From: Flavobacterium nackdongense
GTDB lineage: Bacteria > Bacteroidota > Bacteroidia > Flavobacteriales > Flavobacteriaceae
Reading direction: 5' to 3'
DNA length: 64,000 bases
NCBI RefSeq assembly: GCF_004355225.1
Contig: NZ_CP037933.1
Location: 3,472,001 to 3,536,000, forward strand
In this document: piece by piece, positions 17,740 to 61,745 of the stretch
Numbering within the stretch: position 1 is the stretch's first letter
Layout of the letters: the number at the start of each line of letters is the position of its first letter
The notes under the pieces: generated by a model
Told to the model about the DNA's origin: nothing
The model's database searches: none
What the model saw: the letters and a program-made list of their open reading frames with translations, nothing else
Program-made: the position numbers and the translations under genes

Positions 17740-17812
17740 GTTCGTAGTTTCTGGTTTGTAGTTTCGGGTTGAACTGCAAACCATAAACCATAAACCATAA
17801 ACCACAAACATA
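17740..17812. repeat. opposed heptamer arrays
   Basis: Four plus-sense units of the form GTTnnnn (17740-17767) face five tandem AAACnnn units (17778-17812: aaaccat three times, aaaccac, aaacata). The junction forms an eleven-pair hairpin (GGTTTGTAGTT / AACTGCAAACC, 17753-17782). The array fills the gap between the SPFH gene and the small downstream gene. Confidence 0.8.
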
Positions 17813-17814
17813 AA

Positions 17815-29615: not shown

Positions 29616-29685
29616 CTATTTTCTTTATTCTATTTTCTTTATTCTAAAATCTAAAATCTAAAATCTACAATTTACAATCTAAAAT
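29616..29685. repeat. tandem 14-mer and heptamer array
   Basis: Two identical ctattttctttatt units (29616-29643) are followed by six heptamers (29644-29685: ctaaaat three times, ctacaat, ttacaat, ctaaaat). The stop codon of the trmH-family gene lies within the last unit. The array lies between that gene and the serine hydrolase gene. Confidence 0.8.
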
Positions 29686-30464
29686 CCTCTCTGTCTTTTG
29701 GCTTCGAATATCAATATGGCCGCAGCAACCGAAACATTCATACTGTCGATTTCGCCTTGCATCGGGATGATTATGTTTTGTGAGGCTGCATCACGCCATT
29801 CTTGGGTCAATCCTGTAGCTTCCGTTCCTACCACCAAAGCCGTTGGATTGGTGTAATTTTGGGTGTGATAGGAAGTTGAATTTTGCAAAGTGGCACAATA
29901 AATAGTAATATTTTGCTCTGTCAAAAACGCAATAATTTCCGTTGTGGTTCCTGTGGCGATTTGGTTGGTAAACAAGCAGCCCACGCTCGAGCGAACGATA
30001 TTCGGATTGTACAAATCACTTTTTGGGTTGGCAATAATCACGGCATCGAGATTCGCAGCATCGGCAGTACGCAATAATGCACCAATGTTTCCGGGTTTTT
30101 CAGGCGCTTCTGCAACTAAAATCAAAGGGTTTTCGGATAATTTTAAATCGGATAAATGTAATGATTTGGATTTGGCAATGGCCAAAACGCCTTCGGTAGT
30201 GTCACGATACGCTAGTTTTTGATAGATTTCTTTCGAAATTTCGATTAATTCAGTGCTTTTGGAAAGGTGGTGAGCTTCCGTTTCCGAAATTAATTCGGGT
30301 AAAAACAAAATCGTTTCCATTTCGTAACCGCCTTTCGTTGCAATTTCGATTTCTCTTTTGCCTTCAATCATAAAAGTACCGGATTGTTTGCGGGCTTTTG
30401 CTTTTTCCTGCAATAGTACTAAAGATTTTATGAATGGATTTTGGGATGAAGTGATTTGTTTCAA
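29679..30464 (-). CDS. TrmH family RNA methyltransferase (SpoU)
   Basis: A 261-residue SPOUT methyltransferase that 2'-O-methylates rRNA or tRNA with S-adenosylmethionine. The N-terminal substrate domain (about 1-95) includes ITSSQNPFIKSLVLLQ. The C-terminal knot (about 110-255) has the three SpoU motifs: PGNIGALLRTADAAN, LVVGTEATGL and IPMQGEIDSMNVSVAAAILIFE. TTG at 30464 is chosen because it begins the conserved sequence and an upstream TTG at 30497 lies inside the promoter box. The stop codon is part of a heptamer repeat. Confidence 0.9.
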   Translation of the reverse strand: MKQITSSQNPFIKSLVLLQEKAKARKQSGTFMIEGKREIEIATKGGYEMETILFLPELISETEAHHLSKSTELIEISKEIYQKLAYRDTTEGVLAIAKSKSLHLSDLKLSENPLILVAEAPEKPGNIGALLRTADAANLDAVIIANPKSDLYNPNIVRSSVGCLFTNQIATGTTTEIIAFLTEQNITIYCATLQNSTSYHTQNYTNPTALVVGTEATGLTQEWRDAASQNIIIPMQGEIDSMNVSVAAAILIFEAKRQRGF

Positions 30465-30494
30465 GGCTAACAGCAATTTAGTTATATTTGGTAA

Positions 30495-30502
30495 CAAAGA
30501 TA
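30495..30502 (-). promoter_or_regulatory. -7 promoter box of the trmH-family gene
   Basis: TATCTTTG on the minus strand, exact TAnnTTTG. It overlaps the upstream TTG and thereby favours the TTG start at 30464, with a leader of about 25 bases. Confidence 0.65.
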
Positions 30503-31269: not shown

Positions 31270-32247
31270 GTGAAGAATTATTACGTAAAACAATATCAAA
31301 AAATCGATTATTCCGATTGGAATTCCTTTATTGGCCAAGCCAAAAATGCCACTTTTCTGTTTCATCGTGATTTTATGGAATACCACCAAGACCGTTTCGA
31401 GGATTACTCTTTGATTGTTTTGGATGGCGAAAAATGGGTTGCCGTGCTTCCAGCAAATAGAGTTGGCAATGAAATTTTCTCACATCAGGGATTGACTTAT
31501 GGCGGATTGATTTATAACGAAAAACATAAATTAGCTTCGGTTATTGCAATTTTCAAAAGTGTTTTATCTTTTTTGAATGACAATTCAATCGAAAAATTGC
31601 AAGTAAAATTAATGCCTTCCATTTATCATCAAAAACCAGCCGAAGAATTGAATTATGCTCTGTTTTTAGTGGGAGCCCAATTAATACGAAGAGATACATT
31701 GGCTGTTTTGGATTTGTCTCAAGAAAATAATTTGTCAAAACTCAGAAAAAGGAGCATTCAAAGAGGAATTTCGAATGATTTTACGATAAGAGAAGTGGAT
31801 GATTTTGAAGATTTTTGGAACGAAATATTAATTCCGAATTTAGCTCAAAAACACCAAGCCAAACCTGTTCACAGTTTGGAAGAAATTATAAAATTGAAAG
31901 CCTTGTTTCCAAAAAATATCCGACAATTTAATGTCTATGAAAATGGAATTATTGTTGCTGGAACCACCATTTTCGGAACTTCAACCGTTGCTCATTGTCA
32001 ATATATTTCTGGCAAAGAAGACAAAAATGAATTGGGTGGATTGGATTATTTATTTCAACAATTGATTTCAGAAACTTTCAAAAACAAGTGTTTCTTTGAT
32101 TTTGGAATTTCCAACGAAAATCAAGGGCGAAAGTTAAATAATGGTTTGTCGTATTGGAAAGAAAGCTTTGGAGCGAGTACGATTGTTCAGGATTTTTATG
32201 AGGTGGAAACTTCAAATTATGGTTTACTAGACACCGTTTTGCTATGA
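31270..32247 (+). CDS. FemAB/GNAT-like acyltransferase in the polysaccharide locus
   Basis: A 325-residue protein with a GNAT-type aminoacyl/acyl transferase fold of the FemAB group. It starts at GTG ([21 protein letters not shown]), with the conserved [15 protein letters not shown] and [21 protein letters not shown] in the N-terminal half. The C-terminal GNAT half contains [20 protein letters not shown]. FemAB proteins usually add amino acids to peptidoglycan precursors. Here the gene overlaps the fdtB-like aminotransferase by four bases (ATGA). It may therefore acylate or aminoacylate the amino sugar made by FdtA/FdtB, in place of an FdtC acetyltransferase. That is inference. Confidence 0.8.
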
Positions 32248-33365
32248 TACAATTCCTCGACTTAAAAAAAATAAACGCTCCCTATGAAACGGCATTTCAA
32301 GAGAAATTGAAATCGGTTTTAGAAAACGGTTGGTATATTTTGGGCAATGAAGTCAAAACATTCGAAAACAATTTTGCCCATTATTGCGGTGCAAAAAATT
32401 GTATTGGAGTTGGCAATGGATTTGATGCCTTGGTTCTGATTTTTAAAGGATATATTCAGCTCGGGAAACTGCAAAAAGGGGATGAAGTGATTGTTCCTGC
32501 GAATACGTATATTGCCAGTATTTTGGCAATTTTAGAGGCGGATTTGGTGCCAGTTTTAGTTGAGCCAAAGTTGGAAACCTATAACCTCAATCCCAATTTA
32601 ATTTTAGAAAAAATCACGTCCAAAACCAAAGCAATTCTTGTGGTTCATCTATATGGACAATTAGCCGAAATGGATCGAATAAACGAAATTGCGATACAAA
32701 ATAATTTGATTGTTGTGGAAGATGCCGCTCAGGCGCATGGTACAATTAGAAATCAAAAATCAGAAATCAAAAATCTGCAATCAAGCGCAGCGTATAGTTT
32801 TTACCCAGGAAAAAATCTCGGTGCTTTGGGTGATGGTGGCGCGGTTGTTACCAATGATTCGGAATTGGCAAAAGTGATTCAATCGCTAAGAAATTACGGT
32901 TCTGAAGCCAAATATCAGAATGAATTTATTGGTCTCAATTCAAGATTAGACGAAATTCAAGCGGCTTTCCTAAATGTGAAACTACCTCATTTAGACGCAG
33001 AAAATGCGATTCGAAAAGCAATCGCTACACGCTATTTGTCCGAAATAAAAAATGATAAAATTACTTTGCCAGCTCCGTCATTGCGCGGCACGAAGCAATC
33101 TCACGTTTTTCATTTGTTTGTCATTCGAACCGAAAACCGAGAGCAATTGCAACAGTATTTATTAGACAACGGAATTCAAACAATGATTCATTATCCCATT
33201 CCACCGCATAAGCAAAAAGCTTTTAGTCCCGAGACTTCGGGATGGAATCATTTGTCTTTTCCAATAACCGAAAAAATCCACAATGAAGTTTTGAGTTTGC
33301 CCATAAGTCCGGTATTGACAAAGGAGGAAGTTGATTTTGTTGTTTCAATTTTAAATCAGTATTAA
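32244..33365 (+). CDS. sugar 3-aminotransferase, DegT/DnrJ/EryC1/StrS family (FdtB/QdtB-like)
   Basis: A 373-residue PLP enzyme that aminates a dTDP-3-keto-6-deoxyhexose. Conserved sequence includes [15 protein letters not shown], the PLP-stacking and aspartate regions [10 protein letters not shown], and the Schiff-base lysine in [15 protein letters not shown] (Lys190). Two segments look foreign. Codons for [14 protein letters not shown] (32749-32783) are a tract of five 7-base units just before the active-site loop. Codons for [10 protein letters not shown] (33074-33106) contain a sequence like a widespread bacterial palindromic repeat. Both leave the frame open. FdtA lies 3.3 kb downstream, which supports synthesis of a 3-amino-3,6-dideoxyhexose such as Fuc3N or Qui3N. 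Confidence 0.9.
32749..32783 (+). repeat. coding heptamer tract inside fdtB-like gene
   Basis: Five units gaaatca, aaaatca, gaaatca, aaaatct, gcaatca in exact seven-base register. The sequence resembles the intergenic heptamers at 29644. It is translated and sits between the QAHG motif and the lysine loop. Confidence 0.75.
33077..33103 (+). repeat. palindromic-repeat-like segment inside fdtB-like gene
   Basis: GTCATTGCGCGGCACGAAGC followed by AATCTCA. It resembles a repeat commonly seen in diverse bacterial genomes, translated here as [10 protein letters not shown] genome search is needed to prove further copies. Confidence 0.6.
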
Positions 33366-33366
33366 T

Positions 33367-34641
33367 TTGGAATTTATAAAAGAAATAGTGCGAACCAACC
33401 TATTTAAAATCACTTCTTTAAATAGTGTAAGCGTTCTGATTAAAATTGGAATTGGTTTGGTGACTTCAAAATTATTGGCAATTTTTGTAGGACCAAGCGG
33501 AATGGCTTTGGTCGGGAATCTAAGAAATTTTTCAAATTCATTAGAAAGTATCGCAACTCTAGGATTTCAAAACGGAATCGTAAAATATGTGGCTGAAACT
33601 AAGGACGACAGACCACAATTTCAGAAGTTAATTTCCACTGTTTGTATCAGTTTGTTAGTAGTAGCCATTCTTTTGAGTGGAATTCTGTATTTTTTTGCAG
33701 CATTTTGGAACCAGCAAATTTTCGGAACTCATTTCGAATATGAAATTGTTATTAAAGCCATGGCCTTGGCTTTGCCGTGGTTTGCTATTGCTGTTTTTTT
33801 TCTTTCAATAATCAATGGTTTAGGGAAATTCAAGTCAGTTATTTATGTTAACATTATCGGAAATCTGATAGGATTATTGGTTTCAATGAGTATGATTTTG
33901 CAATACAAAACTCTGGGAGCATTGCTTTCTATCGTAATTACGCCAGCATTATTGTTTTTGGTGACCTATTATTTTATTGCCAAAGAGTTTCAATTTTCAA
34001 AACTTGTTCAATATCAATCATTTGATTTTCATGTGATAAGGAATTTATCTTCTTACTCACTAATGGCTCTGGTATCTTCTGTTTTGGGACCGTTGGTTTA
34101 TTTAGCCATTCGAAAAAATGTAATTTTTGTAGTTGGTATTGAACAGGCTGGATTTTGGGAAACAATGACTCGAATTTCGACCTATTATATGCTGTTCATT
34201 TCTACAATATTGACCGTTTATTTTTTGCCAAAATTGGCTGTTGCCAAAGATAATTTCGAAACCAAAAAAGTCTTTTGGAGTTTTTACAAAAATATTTTAC
34301 CCCTTTTTATTATCGGTTTGATTTTTATTTATTTCTCACGGACTTTACTCATAAAATTACTTTTTACCAAAGAGTTTCTTCCAGTAACGAACTTGTTTTT
34401 TTGGCAATTATCGGGCGATGTTTTAAAAGTGGCTTCCTTGATTTTAGGCTATCAATTTTTCGCCAAAAAAATGACTCTAGCCTTTATTTTATCGGAATTA
34501 GCTTCTCTTGGTGTTTTGTATTTTTCGAGCATTTTTCTAATTAAATTTTTTGGAATTCAAGGAATAGTAATGGCACAAGCTTTAGATAATTTTACTTATT
34601 TATTGGTTTTAGCAATCTATTTCAGGAAAAGTTTATTTTAA
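33367..34641 (+). CDS. wzx: O-antigen translocase (Wzx-like flippase)
   Basis: A 424-residue polysaccharide transporter of the MOP superfamily with about twelve predicted helices. The N terminus (NLFKITSLNSVSVLIKIGIG, then TSKLLAIFVGPSGMALVGNL) is typical of the WzxE/O-antigen translocase group. It flips undecaprenyl-pyrophosphate-linked repeat units across the inner membrane. The start is TTG at 33367, one base after the fdtB stop, so the genes are cotranscribed. The 3' end overlaps the convergent GT4 gene by four bases. No wzy polymerase is visible in the window. Confidence 0.88.
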   Translation: MEFIKEIVRTNLFKITSLNSVSVLIKIGIGLVTSKLLAIFVGPSGMALVGNLRNFSNSLESIATLGFQNGIVKYVAETKDDRPQFQKLISTVCISLLVVAILLSGILYFFAAFWNQQIFGTHFEYEIVIKAMALALPWFAIAVFFLSIINGLGKFKSVIYVNIIGNLIGLLVSMSMILQYKTLGALLSIVITPALLFLVTYYFIAKEFQFSKLVQYQSFDFHVIRNLSSYSLMALVSSVLGPLVYLAIRKNVIFVVGIEQAGFWETMTRISTYYMLFISTILTVYFLPKLAVAKDNFETKKVFWSFYKNILPLFIIGLIFIYFSRTLLIKLLFTKEFLPVTNLFFWQLSGDVLKVASLILGYQFFAKKMTLAFILSELASLGVLYFSSIFLIKFFGIQGIVMAQALDNFTYLLVLAIYFRKSLF

Positions 34642-35792
34642 TTTTTGTTTGATATTTGAGACCAAACCTCCAAGTATTTCTCGGCTATTTTACTATAGTT
34701 ATGTTCCTGCTCAACAAATGCTCTCGCTCGTTTGCTAATGGCTTTAAGTTCTTCGGGATTTTCTATCAAAAAAGACAGTTCTTCGACTAAAGATTTTACA
34801 TTTGGTAAAGCATTGATAGCTACTTTTTCGGTCAAATAGTATTGTTTCATAAATTCATTTTCTGCTCCTGTAAAAACCACTTTCCCTTTCGCCATCGCTT
34901 CAAGCGCATTGTAACCTTGGTCGTAACTATATACTTGATCTAGTAAAATATGGGCTTTGTTGTACGCCCCGATATATTGTTTATAAGGTATGCTTCGGGT
35001 AACAATGATTTCAACTTGATTGGGATATTTTTCTGTAATTATTTCTACAGCTTTTTCAAAAAAATGGCTTCCTTTTTTAACCGCACTACGGTTGTTAATC
35101 CCCAGAAAAATGATAATTTTATCTTCAATAACCAACGGTTTATATTCAATAGTGTCTGTATTTATAGGATTTGGAATGAAATGCGAATGGTACCCCATTG
35201 CTTCCATCGGGATTTTATAATCTAAGTCTGAGGTGATAAAAGAAGTGCAGTTTTTGTACAAACTGTCAAAAGTTTTTCGATAGCTTTTTGTTCTGTATTT
35301 AAGCGTAAATTGCAATTGTTTTTCTAACGACTTTTCCTCGAAGTACGGACTTAGAATCGAGTATTTCATTTTTTGTTGCAGTAGATAATCTACAACTGGG
35401 GTCTCGTCACCACAAATTAGTAAGCTACGACTTTTGATAGTTTTAAATAGTTTTTTATACAGAATTCTGGACAAAAAGGGGTAGGATTCAATAGCATCAG
35501 AATTGATGAACTGAACGTGATCAAACTCTTTTTGTTTTAGAATAAAACTGTAAAAACGAATAGCTCGTTCAATTTTTTCTAAATCAATTGTTGTTATTTT
35601 AAAAATACCATTTTTCACTCTTTGAATGAACCAAAAATCGGAAACAAAAGCCGAATGTAGGGAGTAATCTACATCATATTTTTTAAAATTGTCGCCAGAA
35701 GCAACAAGAAGGACTTCGTGTCCTAAAGCTTGTAAGCCTTCTTTTAGTGAGTTGTGTAATCGACTGTATTCTCCTATCAAAAGTATTTTCAT
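34638..35792 (-). CDS. glycosyltransferase family 4-like protein
   Basis: A 384-residue GT-B fold glycosyltransferase. The N-terminal KILLIGEYSRLHNSLKEGL and the C-terminal donor domain with GYNALEAMAKGKVVFTGAENEF (E-x7-E type region, about 295-315) support GT4/GT1 assignment. It adds one sugar of the surface glycan on the cytoplasmic side. It runs opposite to its neighbours in the locus, convergent with wzx and divergent from the GT2 at 35837. The start region of the latter lies directly upstream. Confidence 0.82.
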   Translation of the reverse strand: MKILLIGEYSRLHNSLKEGLQALGHEVLLVASGDNFKKYDVDYSLHSAFVSDFWFIQRVKNGIFKITTIDLEKIERAIRFYSFILKQKEFDHVQFINSDAIESYPFLSRILYKKLFKTIKSRSLLICGDETPVVDYLLQQKMKYSILSPYFEEKSLEKQLQFTLKYRTKSYRKTFDSLYKNCTSFITSDLDYKIPMEAMGYHSHFIPNPINTDTIEYKPLVIEDKIIIFLGINNRSAVKKGSHFFEKAVEIITEKYPNQVEIIVTRSIPYKQYIGAYNKAHILLDQVYSYDQGYNALEAMAKGKVVFTGAENEFMKQYYLTEKVAINALPNVKSLVEELSFLIENPEELKAISKRARAFVEQEHNYSKIAEKYLEVWSQISNKN

Positions 35793-35810
35793 TTCTCAGG
35801 CATAAATTGC

Positions 35811-35818
35811 TATATTTG
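35811..35818 (+). promoter_or_regulatory. -7 promoter box of the GT2-fdtA pair
   Basis: TATATTTG, exact TAnnTTTG, 18 bases before the TTG at 35837. It rules out upstream in-frame starts that overlap the divergent GT4 gene. Confidence 0.65.
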
Positions 35819-35836
35819 TGTAAATATACTAACAAA

Positions 35837-36682
35837 TTGATTACCGATTTTAAAAACCCTGATTTAGAAATACTGGTTGCAACCTTGAATCGGAACTCGC
35901 TAGATTTTTTGATTCCGATGTTTCCTTTTTGTCATTTTTCGGAATACTCTATTTTGGTTGTCAATCAAACGCAAGCATCTAATTTGCTGGTTTCAGAATT
36001 TGATTCGGTTCGAGTGATCAATTCTTTTGAAAAGGGATTGTCTAAAAGTAGAAATTTGGCACTAGAAAATACAATCGGAAAAATTGTTTTAATTGCTGAT
36101 GATGATGTGGTTTTTTTGCCGGACTTTCAACAAAATATTTTGGAGGAATACAAACAAAATCCTAGTGTTGCCGCTATTTGTTTTCAAACAATTACTAATG
36201 AAGGTTTTTTGTATAGTAAATATCCTAAATCTGCAAAGGAATTAAGTTTTACCAATTTAAGAAAGGTATTGTCGATAGAAGTGACGTGTAGGGTTGGAAA
36301 TTTAAATATGAAAAATTGCAGATTTAATGAGTTTTTTGGTTTGGGAGCCCAATTTCAAGATTCTGAAACGTTTTTTTTTCTCCGAAATATCAAGCATAAG
36401 GGATTGAAAGTTGTATTTGCACCAAAAAGTATTGTGGTCCACAAGCCTTTTTCATCCAGTGATGATGCGAGTTCTGATCGAGTAATTTATGCGCGAATGG
36501 CGGGATTTTACAAACGATATAGTTGGATTGCTTATGTATTACTACTGAAGTATATATTTTTTGTGTTTAGAAAATATGATTTTCCTGCTAAGGAAATTAA
36601 AAATAAATTTAGTATTGGATTAGCGGGTATTAACGATTATAAAGTAATTTTGAATAAAAAATTAGATTCATCTTATGAATAA
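35837..36682 (+). CDS. glycosyltransferase family 2
   Basis: A 281-residue GT-A glycosyltransferase with DLEILVATLNRNSLDFL, the donor region GLSKSRNLALENTIG and the metal-binding DDDVVFLPDF (about residue 85). The start is TTG at 35837. The open frame extends upstream to 35747, but that part overlaps the divergent GT4 gene and precedes the promoter box. The 3' end overlaps fdtA by eight bases, giving probable translational coupling. The sugar transferred is not known. Confidence 0.85.
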   Translation: MITDFKNPDLEILVATLNRNSLDFLIPMFPFCHFSEYSILVVNQTQASNLLVSEFDSVRVINSFEKGLSKSRNLALENTIGKIVLIADDDVVFLPDFQQNILEEYKQNPSVAAICFQTITNEGFLYSKYPKSAKELSFTNLRKVLSIEVTCRVGNLNMKNCRFNEFFGLGAQFQDSETFFFLRNIKHKGLKVVFAPKSIVVHKPFSSSDDASSDRVIYARMAGFYKRYSWIAYVLLLKYIFFVFRKYDFPAKEIKNKFSIGLAGINDYKVILNKKLDSSYE

Positions 36683-37094
36683 AGCAGCTTTTTATGAGCT
36701 TATCCATCTTCCAAAAATTCACGATACCCGTGGAAATCTCTCGGTTATTGAAGGTGACACAATACCTTTCGAAATAAAAAGGGTGTATTATTTATATGAC
36801 GTTCCTAGTGGAAGTGAACGCGGCGGACATGCCCATATCGAACAATTGGAATTTCTTATTGCGCTAAGTGGCAGTTTTGATGTGGTATTAAAGAACGGCA
36901 CTTCCGAAACAATTATTACACTCAATAAACCTAATATAGGGCTTTTGATTCCCATTGGAATTTGGAGAGAATTGCAAAATTTTTCTTCTGGTTCGGTTTG
37001 CTTAGTCCTGGCATCGGACGTTTTTGCTGAGGAAGATTATATCCGTGATTTTGAAGATTTTGAATTATTTAAAAAAGGAATTTCCAAAACCTAA
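36675..37094 (+). CDS. fdtA: sugar 3,4-ketoisomerase, WxcM-like cupin (FdtA/QdtA)
   Basis: A 139-residue single-domain cupin that converts dTDP-4-keto-6-deoxyglucose to a 3-keto isomer, the substrate of FdtB. Conserved motifs are IHDTRGNLSVIEG, RVYYLYDVPSGSERGGHAH (the catalytic histidines) and LLIPIGIWRELQNFSSGSVCLVLAS. FdtA and QdtA differ in the C4 configuration of the product and cannot be distinguished by eye. It overlaps the upstream GT2 by eight bases and the convergent GT2 by 30 bases. Its pairing with the aminotransferase at 32244 defines a dTDP-3-amino sugar pathway. Confidence 0.9.
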   Translation: MNKAAFYELIHLPKIHDTRGNLSVIEGDTIPFEIKRVYYLYDVPSGSERGGHAHIEQLEFLIALSGSFDVVLKNGTSETIITLNKPNIGLLIPIGIWRELQNFSSGSVCLVLASDVFAEEDYIRDFEDFELFKKGISKT

Positions 37095-37991
37095 ATTAGC
37101 CCAAAATAGCTGAAATGCAATAAGCAGTTTTAACATTGAAGTTGGTAATTGGAGTAATAATCTTTTTTTTAAAGTCAAATTTTCGAAATCAATAGCTTTG
37201 TAAAATTGCTGAAATGAATCTTTGTCGCCAATTATTTTTGATTTTATAGCCAACGAAAACCGATTTAAATCCAGAAATTTTTTCAAACCCAGATTCGATT
37301 TTTCTAATAAATCATATTTAGAAAAATCCAGTGACTCAATACTGATTTTATGATTTTTAGAAAGACTTTTGTCGTCATAAACATAGCGTGCTAGTATTTT
37401 CCAAGAAAACAAAATGGGGTAAACCAATCCAATTCTAATCCACATATCAGTATCTTCACCGCTTTTTAAACGGAGGTCAAAGTGGCCTATGTGTTCAAAA
37501 ACACTTTTGTGAAAAACGGCTGAAGAAGAGCAAAGTACGGTTCTTTTTTTACTAGCTGAAAAGTAATTTACGATCTCAAAACTGGCTGTTTTTTGGATAG
37601 AATATGTCGCTGGAATAATTTTTTTTGAAGTTTCAATTTCTATTGCCGATGAAAATACGTTTAGTTTAGTATGGAGTTTGATATTTTGAAACATTTCCTC
37701 TAAAAAAGTGGGATACCAATAATCGTCAGCATCAATAAAGGCTAGATATTCGGAATTAGCTTTTTTAATTCCAAAATTTCTTGCCGAGGAAACGCCTCCA
37801 TTTTCTTTGTAATAATATTGTATTCTTGCCTCTTTGTTTTGAAGCACTTTTTCTTCGCTTTTGTCGGTTGATCCATCATTGACAATTATAATTTCAAAAT
37901 CAGTAAAAGTCTGCGAAAGAACACTTTTCAATGTCTTTTGAATAAATTTTTCTTTATTGTACAAAGGGATGATTATCGAAAAGTAGGACAT
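37065..37991 (-). CDS. glycosyltransferase family 2
   Basis: A 308-residue GT-A enzyme: FSIIIPLYNKEKFIQKTL, IIVNDGSTDKS, YLAFIDADDYWYPTFLEEM and the C-terminal half with GEDTDMWIRIG. ATG at 37991 is favoured over an upstream start at 38012 that would run into the preceding gene. The final 30 bases overlap fdtA on the opposite strand. It follows another GT2 gene with five bases between them. Confidence 0.87.
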   Translation of the reverse strand: MSYFSIIIPLYNKEKFIQKTLKSVLSQTFTDFEIIIVNDGSTDKSEEKVLQNKEARIQYYYKENGGVSSARNFGIKKANSEYLAFIDADDYWYPTFLEEMFQNIKLHTKLNVFSSAIEIETSKKIIPATYSIQKTASFEIVNYFSASKKRTVLCSSSAVFHKSVFEHIGHFDLRLKSGEDTDMWIRIGLVYPILFSWKILARYVYDDKSLSKNHKISIESLDFSKYDLLEKSNLGLKKFLDLNRFSLAIKSKIIGDKDSFQQFYKAIDFENLTLKKRLLLQLPTSMLKLLIAFQLFWANLGFGNSFFK

Positions 37992-37996
37992 AAGTA

Positions 37997-38875
37997 TTAT
38001 TTTAATGTACAAAAATAACCTAGTCGGTAAAGATCAAAACAGATTAAATTTGGATTTTTATTTAGAATCAATTTCTTTAAAATAGGTTCTGAAATGCTGA
38101 AAATATGCTTCGTTAGTGACAATAACCCGTATTTTTTTAGTGTTTTATACTGTTTTATTAAAGGACTTATGAGTTCAATTTTTTCACCCTCAATCAGAAA
38201 ATATTTTCTGCTTTCGACCGCTTTAAGACTTTTAGCAAAGAATATTTCGTTCGTATCAAGGCCTAAATGGTAAATAGGATTTTCTATATGAAAAACATCT
38301 ATTTTATGGGTGAAAAGCTGGTATGCAAAGAAGATGTCCATTCCATAAAAGGAATTTTCATTGGCATAATTAGTAGTTAAAAAAGTCTTTTTTTGGATTA
38401 ATATATTCCCTGAAAATACATATTGATATGGGTTTTGATTTCTTTCTGAAGCTGTTTTCTCTTCTCGCTCTTTGCCGTATTTGTATCTCAAAATATTTGG
38501 ACTATTGTGTTTGCTATTTTCATAACAATAACCCCCTAAAATAACTTGATTCTCAGGTTTTATACTTTCTAAATAACTAAGAATAAAACTTGAATTTACT
38601 GGAATCACATCTGCATCTAAAAACAAAAGCCATTCGAAGCGAGCCTGATGAGCCAACTTATTTCTGGTATAAGTGCGTCCTGAATTTTTAGATTCTGTAT
38701 TAAAGTGGCAATTTTCCCAATTATTTATAATTTGATTTTCTTTTAAGCAATCGGTAGAGGCATCGTCGAGAACCAGAATTTCGAACTCAATTTCACATTC
38801 CAAACATTGCTTCCGCAATTCCAAAACCAATGGAACTACATTATAATTATAAGTCGGAATGAGAATAGAAAGCAT
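37997..38875 (-). CDS. glycosyltransferase family 2
   Basis: A 292-residue GT-A enzyme: [49 protein letters not shown] and the acceptor-side NENSFYGMDIFFAYQLF. Its stop is five bases before the next GT2 gene, and its start touches the stop of ftsE. It is thus probably transcribed from the ftsE promoter into the sugar locus. Confidence 0.87.
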   Translation of the reverse strand: MLSILIPTYNYNVVPLVLELRKQCLECEIEFEILVLDDASTDCLKENQIINNWENCHFNTESKNSGRTYTRNKLAHQARFEWLLFLDADVIPVNSSFILSYLESIKPENQVILGGYCYENSKHNSPNILRYKYGKEREEKTASERNQNPYQYVFSGNILIQKKTFLTTNYANENSFYGMDIFFAYQLFTHKIDVFHIENPIYHLGLDTNEIFFAKSLKAVESRKYFLIEGEKIELISPLIKQYKTLKKYGLLSLTKHIFSISEPILKKLILNKNPNLICFDLYRLGYFCTLK

Positions 38876-39558
38876 TACACTGTTTTTTGAACCACTTCAA
38901 AAAGGCTCGAATCCTCACATTTCAAAGTTTTTGAAGGGAATTTCATCAATAAAGCATAATCGTGAGTAGCCATAATAACCGTTTTACCAGCTGCGTTTAT
39001 TTTTTTCAAAACTTCAAGTACTTCAACACTAGTTTGTGGATCCAAATTTCCAGTAGGTTCATCGGCAAGAATTATTTCCGGATTATTGAGCAAAGCACGT
39101 GCGATTGCAACACGTTGTTGCTCACCTCCAGAGAGTTGATGCGGCATTTTATTAGCATATTCTTTTACGCCTACTTTTTCTAAAACCTCGTCAATTTTGT
39201 TTTGAATCTCGGTTTCGTCTGTCCATCCCGTTGCTTTGAGTACAAAATGCAAATTGTCTTTTACATTGCGATCGGGCAATAATTGAAAATCTTGGAAAAC
39301 AAAGCCTATTTTTCGTCTCAAAAACGGAATATCATCCTCTTTTAATGTCACTAAATCAAAATCCATAATGTTGCCTTCGCCTTCAGACAGCGGCAAATCG
39401 GCATAAAGTGTCTTCATAAAACTACTTTTTCCAGTTCCCGTTTTTCCGATGATATAGATAAATTCTCCTTGTTTTACTTCAAGATTTACGTTGGATAAAA
39501 TGGTTCTTCCTCCTTGAACTATGGTTACATTTTTTAAAGACAATACAGATTGTGACAT
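38875..39558 (-). CDS. ftsE: ABC transporter ATP-binding protein, FtsE type
   Basis: A 227-residue ATPase with Walker [11 protein letters not shown] (about residue 38), Q-loop [11 protein letters not shown], signature [16 protein letters not shown] and Walker [13 protein letters not shown]. The [13 protein letters not shown] and DEPTGNLDP contexts match FtsE, which with FtsX activates cell-wall hydrolysis at division. No ftsX lies nearby, as is common in Bacteroidota. ATG at 39558 ([12 protein letters not shown]) is preferred to an in-frame start 15 codons upstream. The upstream gap holds a heptamer tract. Confidence 0.88.
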
Positions 39559-39595
39559 AAGGCAATTTATTTTATTTGGTAAAAGTAAGGAAATA

Positions 39596-39649
39596 AATTC
39601 CAAAATTTAAATTCCAAATTCCAAAACCAATAAATAAATTCCAAAATCT
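39596..39649. repeat. degenerate heptamer tract
   Basis: Units aattcca, aaattta, aattcca, aattcca, aaaccaa continue in seven-base register from 39596, with a one-base slip before another aattcca at 39637. They lie between ftsE and the TPR gene. Confidence 0.65.
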
Positions 39650-39735
39650 TAATTTCAGTCTTATACTCTTTGTAATGTTAAAAAGATGTTTATAATAAAA
39701 CCCAAAAGCATTTCGTTATACCCTACAGAATACAA

Positions 39736-50785: not shown

Positions 50786-52735
<1,950 letters not shown>

Positions 52736-52746
52736 AAAAGTTTCGT

Positions 52747-52831
52747 GTTTGTTGTTTATAGTTTGTAGTTCGCTAAAACCATAAACCACAAACCATAAAC
52801 CACAAACGATAAACAACAAACAACAAATAAT
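52747..52831. repeat. opposed heptamer arrays between gyrB and mdh
   Basis: Four GTTnnnn units (52747-52774) face eight tandem AAACnnn-type units (52776-52831: aaaccat, aaaccac, aaaccat, aaaccac, aaacgat, aaacaac twice, aaataat). Same design as the array at 17740. Confidence 0.85.
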
Positions 52832-52847
52832 AATTAAATTAAAAAAA

Positions 52848-53783
52848 ATGAAAGTTACAGTAGTAGGAGCGGGAAATGTAGGAGCATCTTGCGCAGATGT
52901 GATTTCTTATAGAGGAATTGCAAGTGAAGTAGTATTATTAGATATTAGAGAAGGTTTTGCAGAAGGTAAAGCTATGGATTTGATGCAATGCGCAACAAAT
53001 ACAGGTTTTAATACCGTAATCACTGGTGTTACCAACGATTATGCAAAAACAGCCAATAGTGATGTAGTGGTTATTACATCAGGAATTCCAAGAAAACCAG
53101 GAATGACAAGAGAAGAATTAATAGGAATCAACGCAGGAATCGTGAAATCGGTTGCTGATAACGTATTAACACATTCTCCAAACGCAATCATCGTGGTGGT
53201 TTCAAATCCAATGGATACGATGACGTATTTGACATTGAAAGCTACAGGTTTGCCAAAAAACAGAGTAATCGGTATGGGTGGAGCTTTAGATAGTTCTCGT
53301 TTTAGATACTATTTGTCAAAAGCTTTAGACAAGCCTTCAAATGATGTTTCGGCGATGGTTATTGGTGGTCACGGTGATACCACAATGATTCCATTGACAA
53401 GATTAGCGTCTTATAATGGTATTCCAGTATCTCAATTTTTATCAGAAGAAGAATTGGCTAAAGTAGCTTCGGCAACAATGGTTGGTGGTGCTACTCTTAC
53501 AGGTTTGTTAGGAACTTCAGCTTGGTATGCGCCAGGAGCTTCAGTGGCGTATTTGGTAGATAGTATTTTGAATGACCAAAAGAAAATGATAGCTTGTTCT
53601 GTTATGCTTGATGGCGAGTACGGACAAGATGATATTTGTATTGGTGTTCCTTGTATCATTGGAAAAAATGGTGTGGAGCAAATACTGGATATTAATTTAA
53701 GCGATTCAGAAAAAGAGGCTTTTGCCAAAAGCGCCGATGCGGTTAGAAATATGAATGGCGACTTAAGTTCTATTTTAGGATAG
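52848..53783 (+). CDS. mdh: malate dehydrogenase
   Basis: A 311-residue NAD-dependent enzyme of the lactate-like malate dehydrogenase group, oxidising malate to oxaloacetate in the TCA cycle. Visible are the Rossmann start MKVTVVGAGNVGASCADVI, the substrate-binding arginine pattern RKPGMTREEL, NPMDTMTYL and the catalytic histidine in GGHGDTTMIPL (about residue 175). It lies between a heptamer array and a strong terminator, so it is probably a single-gene transcript. Confidence 0.97.
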   Translation: MKVTVVGAGNVGASCADVISYRGIASEVVLLDIREGFAEGKAMDLMQCATNTGFNTVITGVTNDYAKTANSDVVVITSGIPRKPGMTREELIGINAGIVKSVADNVLTHSPNAIIVVVSNPMDTMTYLTLKATGLPKNRVIGMGGALDSSRFRYYLSKALDKPSNDVSAMVIGGHGDTTMIPLTRLASYNGIPVSQFLSEEELAKVASATMVGGATLTGLLGTSAWYAPGASVAYLVDSILNDQKKMIACSVMLDGEYGQDDICIGVPCIIGKNGVEQILDINLSDSEKEAFAKSADAVRNMNGDLSSILG

Positions 53784-61645: not shown

Positions 61646-61656
61646 TCTTGTCTGCT

Positions 61657-61745
61657 GTTTGTGGTTTATTGTTTGTGGTTCATTGTTTGTGGTTTGTTTT
61701 TTGTTAGTTTATAAATAGAAAAACTAAAAACAGCAAACCATACAC
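61657..61745. repeat. heptamer array upstream of cysS
   Basis: Six GTTnnnn units in exact register (61657-61698: gtttgtg, gtttatt, gtttgtg, gttcatt, gtttgtg, gtttgtt) face a more decayed AAAC-type stretch (about 61721-61745). It covers the whole cysS leader. Confidence 0.8.

Follow-up and report, generated by a model that had tools for sequence, protein, structure and literature searches.

In Flavobacterium, one short site within a sugar aminotransferase gene of the FdtB/QdtB type has again and again come to hold translated arrays of seven-base units. The arrays recur at this one site, belong to many unit families, have abrupt edges, change in length by exactly 21 bases, avoid stop codons, and are nearly absent elsewhere in coding DNA. 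This combination is probably due to a tolerant fdtB loop acted on by a genome-wide heptamer process, which copies and expands repeats and whose products are filtered for an open frame. The example from which the analysis started lies in the window, that is, the whole 64,000-nucleotide stretch of Flavobacterium nackdongense DNA analysed here, where the tract would be a translated stretch of the same arrays that fill noncoding DNA, lodged in a loop of the aminotransferase.

The host gene (32244-33365, forward strand) encodes 373 amino acids. A full-length PF01041 domain (2.1e-100, residues 17-370) places the product in the DegT/DnrJ/EryC1/StrS family, and by sequence comparison its nearest solved relatives are PDB entries 7n63 (1.2e-129), 5u1z (1.5e-128) and the QdtB structure 3frk (1.3e-108); no NCBIfam model matched at its own cut-off. 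The protein is thus classed by similarity as a DegT/FdtB-QdtB-type sugar aminotransferase, with a putative 3-keto-sugar transaminase activity and a putative Fuc3N or Qui3N product. Its closest named homologues come from Flavobacterium and from Bacteroidetes metagenome bins. Because a WzxE-like flippase (33367-34641, forward strand; NF011679 at 1.3e-61, below the curated cut-off) and glycosyltransferases (34638-38875) adjoin it, followed by an ABC ATPase (38875-39603), the gene probably belongs to a polysaccharide cluster. The variable site, as defined by alignment columns, spans 57 nt (32739-32795, forward strand; codons 166-184) between the QAH and SFYPGKN motifs. Base-by-base reading of the ORF bore out the initial annotation in placing five heptamers (gaaatca, aaaatca, gaaatca, aaaatct and gcaatca; 32749-32783, forward strand) in perfect register inside the reading frame. 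Tandem Repeats Finder (TRF) reports them with period 14 at 32744-32784 (score 61) and with period 7 at 32750-32775 (score 45), and in 200 mononucleotide shuffles its lag-7 score was never equalled. The tract thus consists of five imperfect units, or 35-41 nt of direct repeats. Shortly downstream, codon 190 (32811-32813, forward strand) encodes the lysine of FYPGKNLG, within an SFYPxKN motif in which this lysine is invariant in 37 of 37 alignment rows; it is replaced by alanine in the PDB sequence 5u21 and retained in the near-identical 5u1z. From what is known of the DegT family, we take K190 to be the PLP lysine.

The unit length of the tract is that of the principal class of tandem repeat in this genome. 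In a 464-kb sample, 33 tandem arrays had period 7, 31 had period 14 and 10 had period 21, while every other period from 2 to 25 yielded 0-3 arrays and a Markov control 0-1 per period. Across the whole genome, AAATCARAAATCARAAATC has 101 matches at two or fewer mismatches, with overlapping matches in one array counted several times, versus 7 for the reversed pattern. The arrays are therefore what is meant by heptanucleotide tandem repeats, tandem 7-nt units dispersed through a genome. Within the window, the initial annotation had pointed to three noncoding arrays of the same type. One of them, a mostly noncoding TCTAAAA array (29643-29686, by TRF, overlapping the last bases of ORF 29679-30497), does belong to the same family as the fdtB tract; the other two share its unit length and have a different unit, namely AAACCAT at 17778-17814 (noncoding, by TRF) and AAACCAT/AAACCAC at 52776-52827, between ORFs 50792-52735 and 52848-53783 and overlapped by a mechanical 125-aa reverse ORF. 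Two more arrays were found in the window, a heptamer-like one around AAATTCC (39594-39656), which overlaps the start of the reverse-strand ORF 38875-39603 and otherwise lies between ORFs, and a noncoding TTGTTTG / TGTTTGTGGTTTAT array (61648-61710, by TRF). A larger 864-kb sample of the genome held 65 period-7 arrays of score 11 or more, 56 of them outside ORFs of at least 100 aa, the ORFs being mechanical calls rather than annotation. Six of the nine arrays inside ORFs are no more than 14 codons from the start of the ORF and are likely start miscalls, which leaves three internal cases: fdtB, a pabB-like gene and MnmE. Individual arrays at the 5′ ends of called ORFs were seen at L158:13128, L156:15515, L151:1488, L150:19548 and L274:6866; these are probably start miscalls, and some may extend real N-termini. 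One 20-kb stretch (L157, G000:C1:3200001-3220000) is very rich in TTGCAGG, GAAGTTA, TACGATA and GAGTTTA arrays, far above the other sampled stretches.

The recurrence at fdtB becomes apparent once homologues from the genus are aligned. An fdtB homologue at E<=1e-80 occurs in 175 of 199 genus genomes, and the alignment comprises 110 genes, the best 30 from the genus search and the best 80 of 272 from a second homologue set, from which 11 with identical DNA were dropped. Among the resulting 99 distinct homologues, which are the top matches of a query that itself bears a tract, 76 carry a lag-7 array between QAHG and SFYPGKN (shuffle p<=0.01) and 49 an array with a score of 11 or more. Lag-7 identity, taken as a mean across the 99 genes, is highest at residue 172 (0.61, versus a gene mean of 0.28); apart from 14, no other lag between 3 and 14 is highest at this residue. 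Nine unit families, assigned by eye, can be told apart at the site: AAATCAR/AATCTAA, AATTAAC, AATTACG, AAAGTCR, AAATTCC, AGTNTTC, AAAACCC, AGCAGTC and TTTCAGA. The last, found in L076, is AAATCTG reversed and thus lies in the opposite orientation. Outside the 99, three of 25 further genus homologues reach a score of 11, with the additional units AACCGAC (L199) and AAGTTGG (L195 and L170); no array of this score was found in 14 and 18 more distant homologues. A subgroup within the genus (L164, L171, L172, L174, L175 and L180) has the site cut to 36 nt, of the HGLTFKGSHARAFSF type, and holds no arrays. The confinement of arrays to the site is pronounced. Over the 80 named loci among the 99, 39 arrays of score 11 or more fall within the 5.6 kb of site sequence; the rest of fdtB (84 kb), ORF interiors (304 kb) and ORF ends (53 kb) hold none, and the surrounding noncoding DNA (31 kb) holds 5. 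Arrays account for 22.5% of site bases, as against 0.8% of noncoding bases at these loci and 2.2% in the own-genome sample, a difference by which tolerance alone may be insufficient as an explanation. The expectation of the initial annotation that the process making intergenic heptamer arrays can also act within genes is borne out, repeatedly at fdtB and at one pabB-like site.

The same gene contains two further translated dispersed repeats, identified by own-genome and homologue matches. The second repeat, TCATTGCGCGGCACGAAGCAATCTCA (33078-33103, forward strand), encodes SLRGTKQS and has 10 own-genome matches at three or fewer mismatches and none reversed; a related 24-mer stands at its site in 19 of the 99 homologues (0 reversed), five of them exact to the 24-base consensus. 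The third, CCCGAGACTTCGGGA (33228-33242, forward strand), encodes part of SPETSG; its 40 own-genome matches at one mismatch or fewer (0 reversed) are partly counted twice, the repeat being near-palindromic, and it recurs in 8 of 99 homologues (0 reversed). Two related observations concern other such sequences. The 24 bases of TCATTGCGAGGAACGAAGCAATCT are identical in the fdtB genes L064, L068, L081, L083 and L085, which belong to different species and have diverged elsewhere. The hairpin NNCTGAGCGAAGTCGAAGNN is dispersed in G015, G057, G052, G056 and others, in 12 of 13 genome handles (0 reversed), of which G052 and G496 show the same places and are one genome. Its outer bases vary yet stay complementary (CC..GG, GA..TC, CA..TG, CT..AG), as in a small family with covarying arms.

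In the wider family, 112 of 249 genomes have a match at 1e-100. In the 28 best other-genus genes no array was found (best score 5), and a KAGNLGDAAGF-type segment occupies the site, which measures 57 nt in 22 of them, 54 in 3 and 60 in 3. As the own site is also 57 nt long, the window tract, to judge by the alignment, stands in place of this conserved segment with no net change in length. The proposal of a strain-specific insertion with a net gain of length is thereby ruled out, the more so because similar tracts occur in other Flavobacterium species (L034 and L073, with 88% identical tracts). Twenty more other-genus genes, five of them picked for unusual length, brought one array, for a total of 1 in 48. 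This gene, L358 (G290:C2:277633-278972), has AAATTCC x3 and 45 additional nt preceding an intact KAGNLGDAAGF, likely a fresh insertion, and is an independent case in another genus. L359 and L362, also from other genera, have longer inserts with weak period 7; together the three indicate that the site is also hit outside the genus, rarely, by insertion. The residues of the window tract appear in none of the 48 other-genus genes, nearly all of which keep the KAGNLGDAAGF-type segment, so the refuting observation named in the initial annotation, homologues with these residues in genomes lacking such repeats, was not made.

Equal length raises the possibility of replacement in place. Sites of 57 nt make up 47 of the 99 fdtB homologues, and the corresponding site of the pabB-like gene is 60 nt in 33 of 40. 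Such constancy could come from a mechanism that conserves length or from selection acting on it. On the former reading, a few loops would record short-patch copying of heptamers and small hairpin repeats from other parts of the genome, in place and without change of length, followed by 7-base extension, and the fdtB site would be a hotspot for it. Short-patch double illegitimate recombination (SPDIR), known from Acinetobacter transformation, would account for the exchange of a short stretch for unrelated DNA of the same genome. A passage of PMC7192050 mentions SPDIR and refers to work by Harms in 2016. Selection could equally keep the length constant, L358 shows a simple insertion, and the AATC and AATT families, the two largest, supply 37 of the 47 fdtB sites that measure 57 nt; these two may be a single array drifting from one origin. 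Given L358 and this family make-up, length-conserving replacement is a possible but rather doubtful account.

Several changes of length amount to 21 bases, or three units. Compared with six genes that share its downstream end, L076 is longer by exactly 21 nt, made up of three TTTCAGA; L067, one of these six, holds a 12-nt seed. The difference between L034 and L138 is exactly 21 nt, and four AAAGTCR genes have 78-nt sites, 21 above the common 57. The origin of the units can be approached through their occurrence elsewhere: 8 of the 21 distinct fdtB and pabB units (38%) are found as consensus units among 62 other own-genome arrays, the two own genes being left out; the corresponding figures are 6.9% for shuffles of the same composition and 8.5% for random 7-mers from coding sequence. 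Because of this excess over shuffles, copying from a common pool is favoured over purely local slippage; the remaining 13 units are absent from the pool, which represents one sampled genome. A surplus of AAAGTCG arrays in genomes with AAAGTCR at fdtB was not clearly seen (totals 2, 8, 11, 8, 2, 0, 3), AAAGTCG arrays being present in 50 of 69 genome handles, and a genome's repertoire did not predict the unit at the site for AAAGTCR, the one family tried. Were their units perfect, 14 of 50 arrays would contain an in-frame stop; the real arrays avoid the stop, as any intact gene must. Taken as a mechanism, the combination of a tolerant loop with a genome-wide process would run as follows. The Flavobacterium loop would tolerate very different sequences, and a process with a 7-base step, active throughout the genome, would write heptamers into it. 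In one mode, a short local seed would grow by three units, 21 bases, with the frame kept; in the other, units already common elsewhere would be brought in, sometimes without net change of length. Selection would then remove changes that break the frame. The copying step itself, which we infer together with the loop character of the segment and its tolerance as opposed to selection for variation, could proceed by recombination with arrays elsewhere or by short-patch substitution. Intragenic arrays would survive at few such loops, because proteins offer few places that would tolerate them.

How often the site has turned over was gauged on a gene tree from which the three variable sites were excluded. 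The 74 rows with a unit family (25 rows without one left out) call for 30 or more changes of family, and all ten groups together require 46 changes, a count as low as which occurred in none of 200 shuffles (mean 54.6); these counts go with modest tree support (13 of 96 inner branches starred) and with unit families assigned by eye. The closest pair, L071 and L077, is 94% identical outside the variable sites, and its tract similarity of 0.51 compares with a mean of 0.56 for random pairs and 0.45 for shuffled ones. Tract edges in aligned close pairs are abrupt by eye. Kinship still shows in the tracts, as the nearest tract lies at a median rank of 7 of 98. Nonetheless, for 44 of the 99 genes the most similar tract is found in a gene that does not rank among their ten closest, and tract exchange between lineages probably takes part. 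Could a few old tract alleles, passed among species by homologous recombination, account for most of the pattern, with few arrays new? L031 has a tract 88% like those of L034 and L073 and 51% like that of its sister L091, and L077, L081, L114 and L116 share one tract type while L071 and L061, the closest relatives of L077 and L081, have another. Against so large a part for exchange, the flanks do not switch with the tract in aligned pairs (by eye), several unit families are limited to one to four genes, and the 21-nt change in L076 is local, which together render this account unlikely.

An alternative driver is selection for change itself, related to substrate, partner or phage, with heptamers serving as raw material only. 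The density of arrays above that of noncoding DNA would fit such selection, as would the behaviour of fdtB paralogues in three genus genomes (L240-L242), which keep the conserved segment, without arrays, alongside the variable gene. Two observations make it quite improbable: many of the changes swap one Asn/Gln/Lys/Ser-rich stretch for another, and a similar pattern is seen in the pabB-like gene, by family not a surface-sugar enzyme. This gene (L258:14084-15367, or G000:C1:114084-115367) contains ACACCCA x4 at residues ~144-153. It is a weaker second case, with arrays at the site in 7 of 40 homologues (six with 60-nt sites, one with 57), built from the units ACACCCA, AAGAGCC, AAATTCC, AAAGTCA, AAAGGGA (twice) and AGTGTTC. 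Four other pabB-like genes have the hairpin repeat CTGAGCGNAGTCGAAG at the site (reversed control 0), and, the own copy aside, the pabB genes (39) have no array outside the site; unlike that of fdtB, the mean lag-7 profile of pabB has no peak at the site. In fdtB, CTGAGCGNAGTCGAAG was found in 2 of 99 genes versus 2 for the reversed sequence, not above control. The third internal array, of AATCTGA type, lies in MnmE, a tRNA-modification GTPase (L261:4140-4164; gene G000:C1:703015-704469), and some relatives differ by 12 nt. As a further case MnmE looks weak: two close relatives have similar residues, and the stretch is otherwise variable with no clear array.

Given the setting of the gene, a contingency locus also comes to mind, in which gain or loss of a single 7-base unit would switch the sugar enzyme, and thus a surface glycan, as in NeuO of Escherichia coli K1. 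Seven is not a multiple of three, the gene adjoins a flippase and glycosyltransferases, from which neighbours a surface role is inferred, and the neuO gene has a translated heptanucleotide array, AAGACTC, of 3-53 repeats in its 5′ region, as an excerpt of PMC13001214 describes. The likeness ends there. In that excerpt the neuO array switches, and NeuO is OFF in 42 of 64 genomes, whereas the fdtB arrays are short, imperfect (five units in the own tract) and mid-gene, with no OFF copies in the matched genomes: no internal stop was found among the genus matches listed (175 of 199 genomes with a match at 1e-80), nor in 12 and 18 further genomes. Four candidates for frameshift-split fdtB genes (G096, G108, G183 and G059) all proved to be single open frames with longer tracts. 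Phase switching is accordingly very improbable. Chance low-complexity, A-rich coding sequence, for all that the tract is A-rich and the arrays are short, is hardly credible and is refuted, as far as these controls go, by the shuffle tests, the reversed-pattern control and the lack of any rise at lags 5, 6, 8, 9 and 10.

Several known repeat systems resemble parts of what is seen at fdtB. PMC4679880 deals with TAACTGA heptanucleotide repeats, which occur in Beggiatoaceae, Cyanobacteria and some Bacteroidetes, and PMC4692102 with the GGGAATC and GGGGAYT repeats of Xanthomonas and Nostoc; heptamer-derived satellites in bacteria in general are reported in PMC6749651. As cited in the first of these, heptamers outnumber every other class of such repeats in the majority of genomes, and an idea holds that 7 nt is the length of polymerase contact. 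The fdtB arrays share with these repeats their dispersed, tandem seven-base units and over-representation in noncoding DNA. They differ in that the repeats of PMC4679880 and PMC4692102 are, in the parts available, single units and chiefly intergenic, whereas at fdtB many units appear in turn at one coding site. Rickettsia palindromic elements, 105-146-bp blocks within protein-coding genes (work by Ogata in 2000, related in PMC2229807), are likewise dispersed and translated in frame in conserved enzymes, a resemblance to which TCATTGCGCGGCACGAAGCAATCTCA and CCCGAGACTTCGGGA contribute. As outlined there, they are insertions of a palindromic block, while the fdtB tract consists of 7-bp direct repeats with no net gain. 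In a library search that covered few subscription papers, no title or opening of an abstract was found that describes the rewriting of a Flavobacterium coding site by heptamer arrays.

These results bear on the abundance of seven-base repeats in bacteria and on the spread of a given unit, matters for which noncoding arrays serve poorly, being hard to align between species. The fdtB site has an alignable gene on both sides, on whose tree births, swaps, 21-base changes and losses can be placed; the rate, donor and step size of heptamers therefore become measurable. The site also shows the extent to which a segment of an enzyme can be rewritten by repeat DNA with the frame kept open. On the length-conserving reading, the density of arrays at fdtB, above that in noncoding DNA, would make the site a real hotspot, beyond a tolerant loop.
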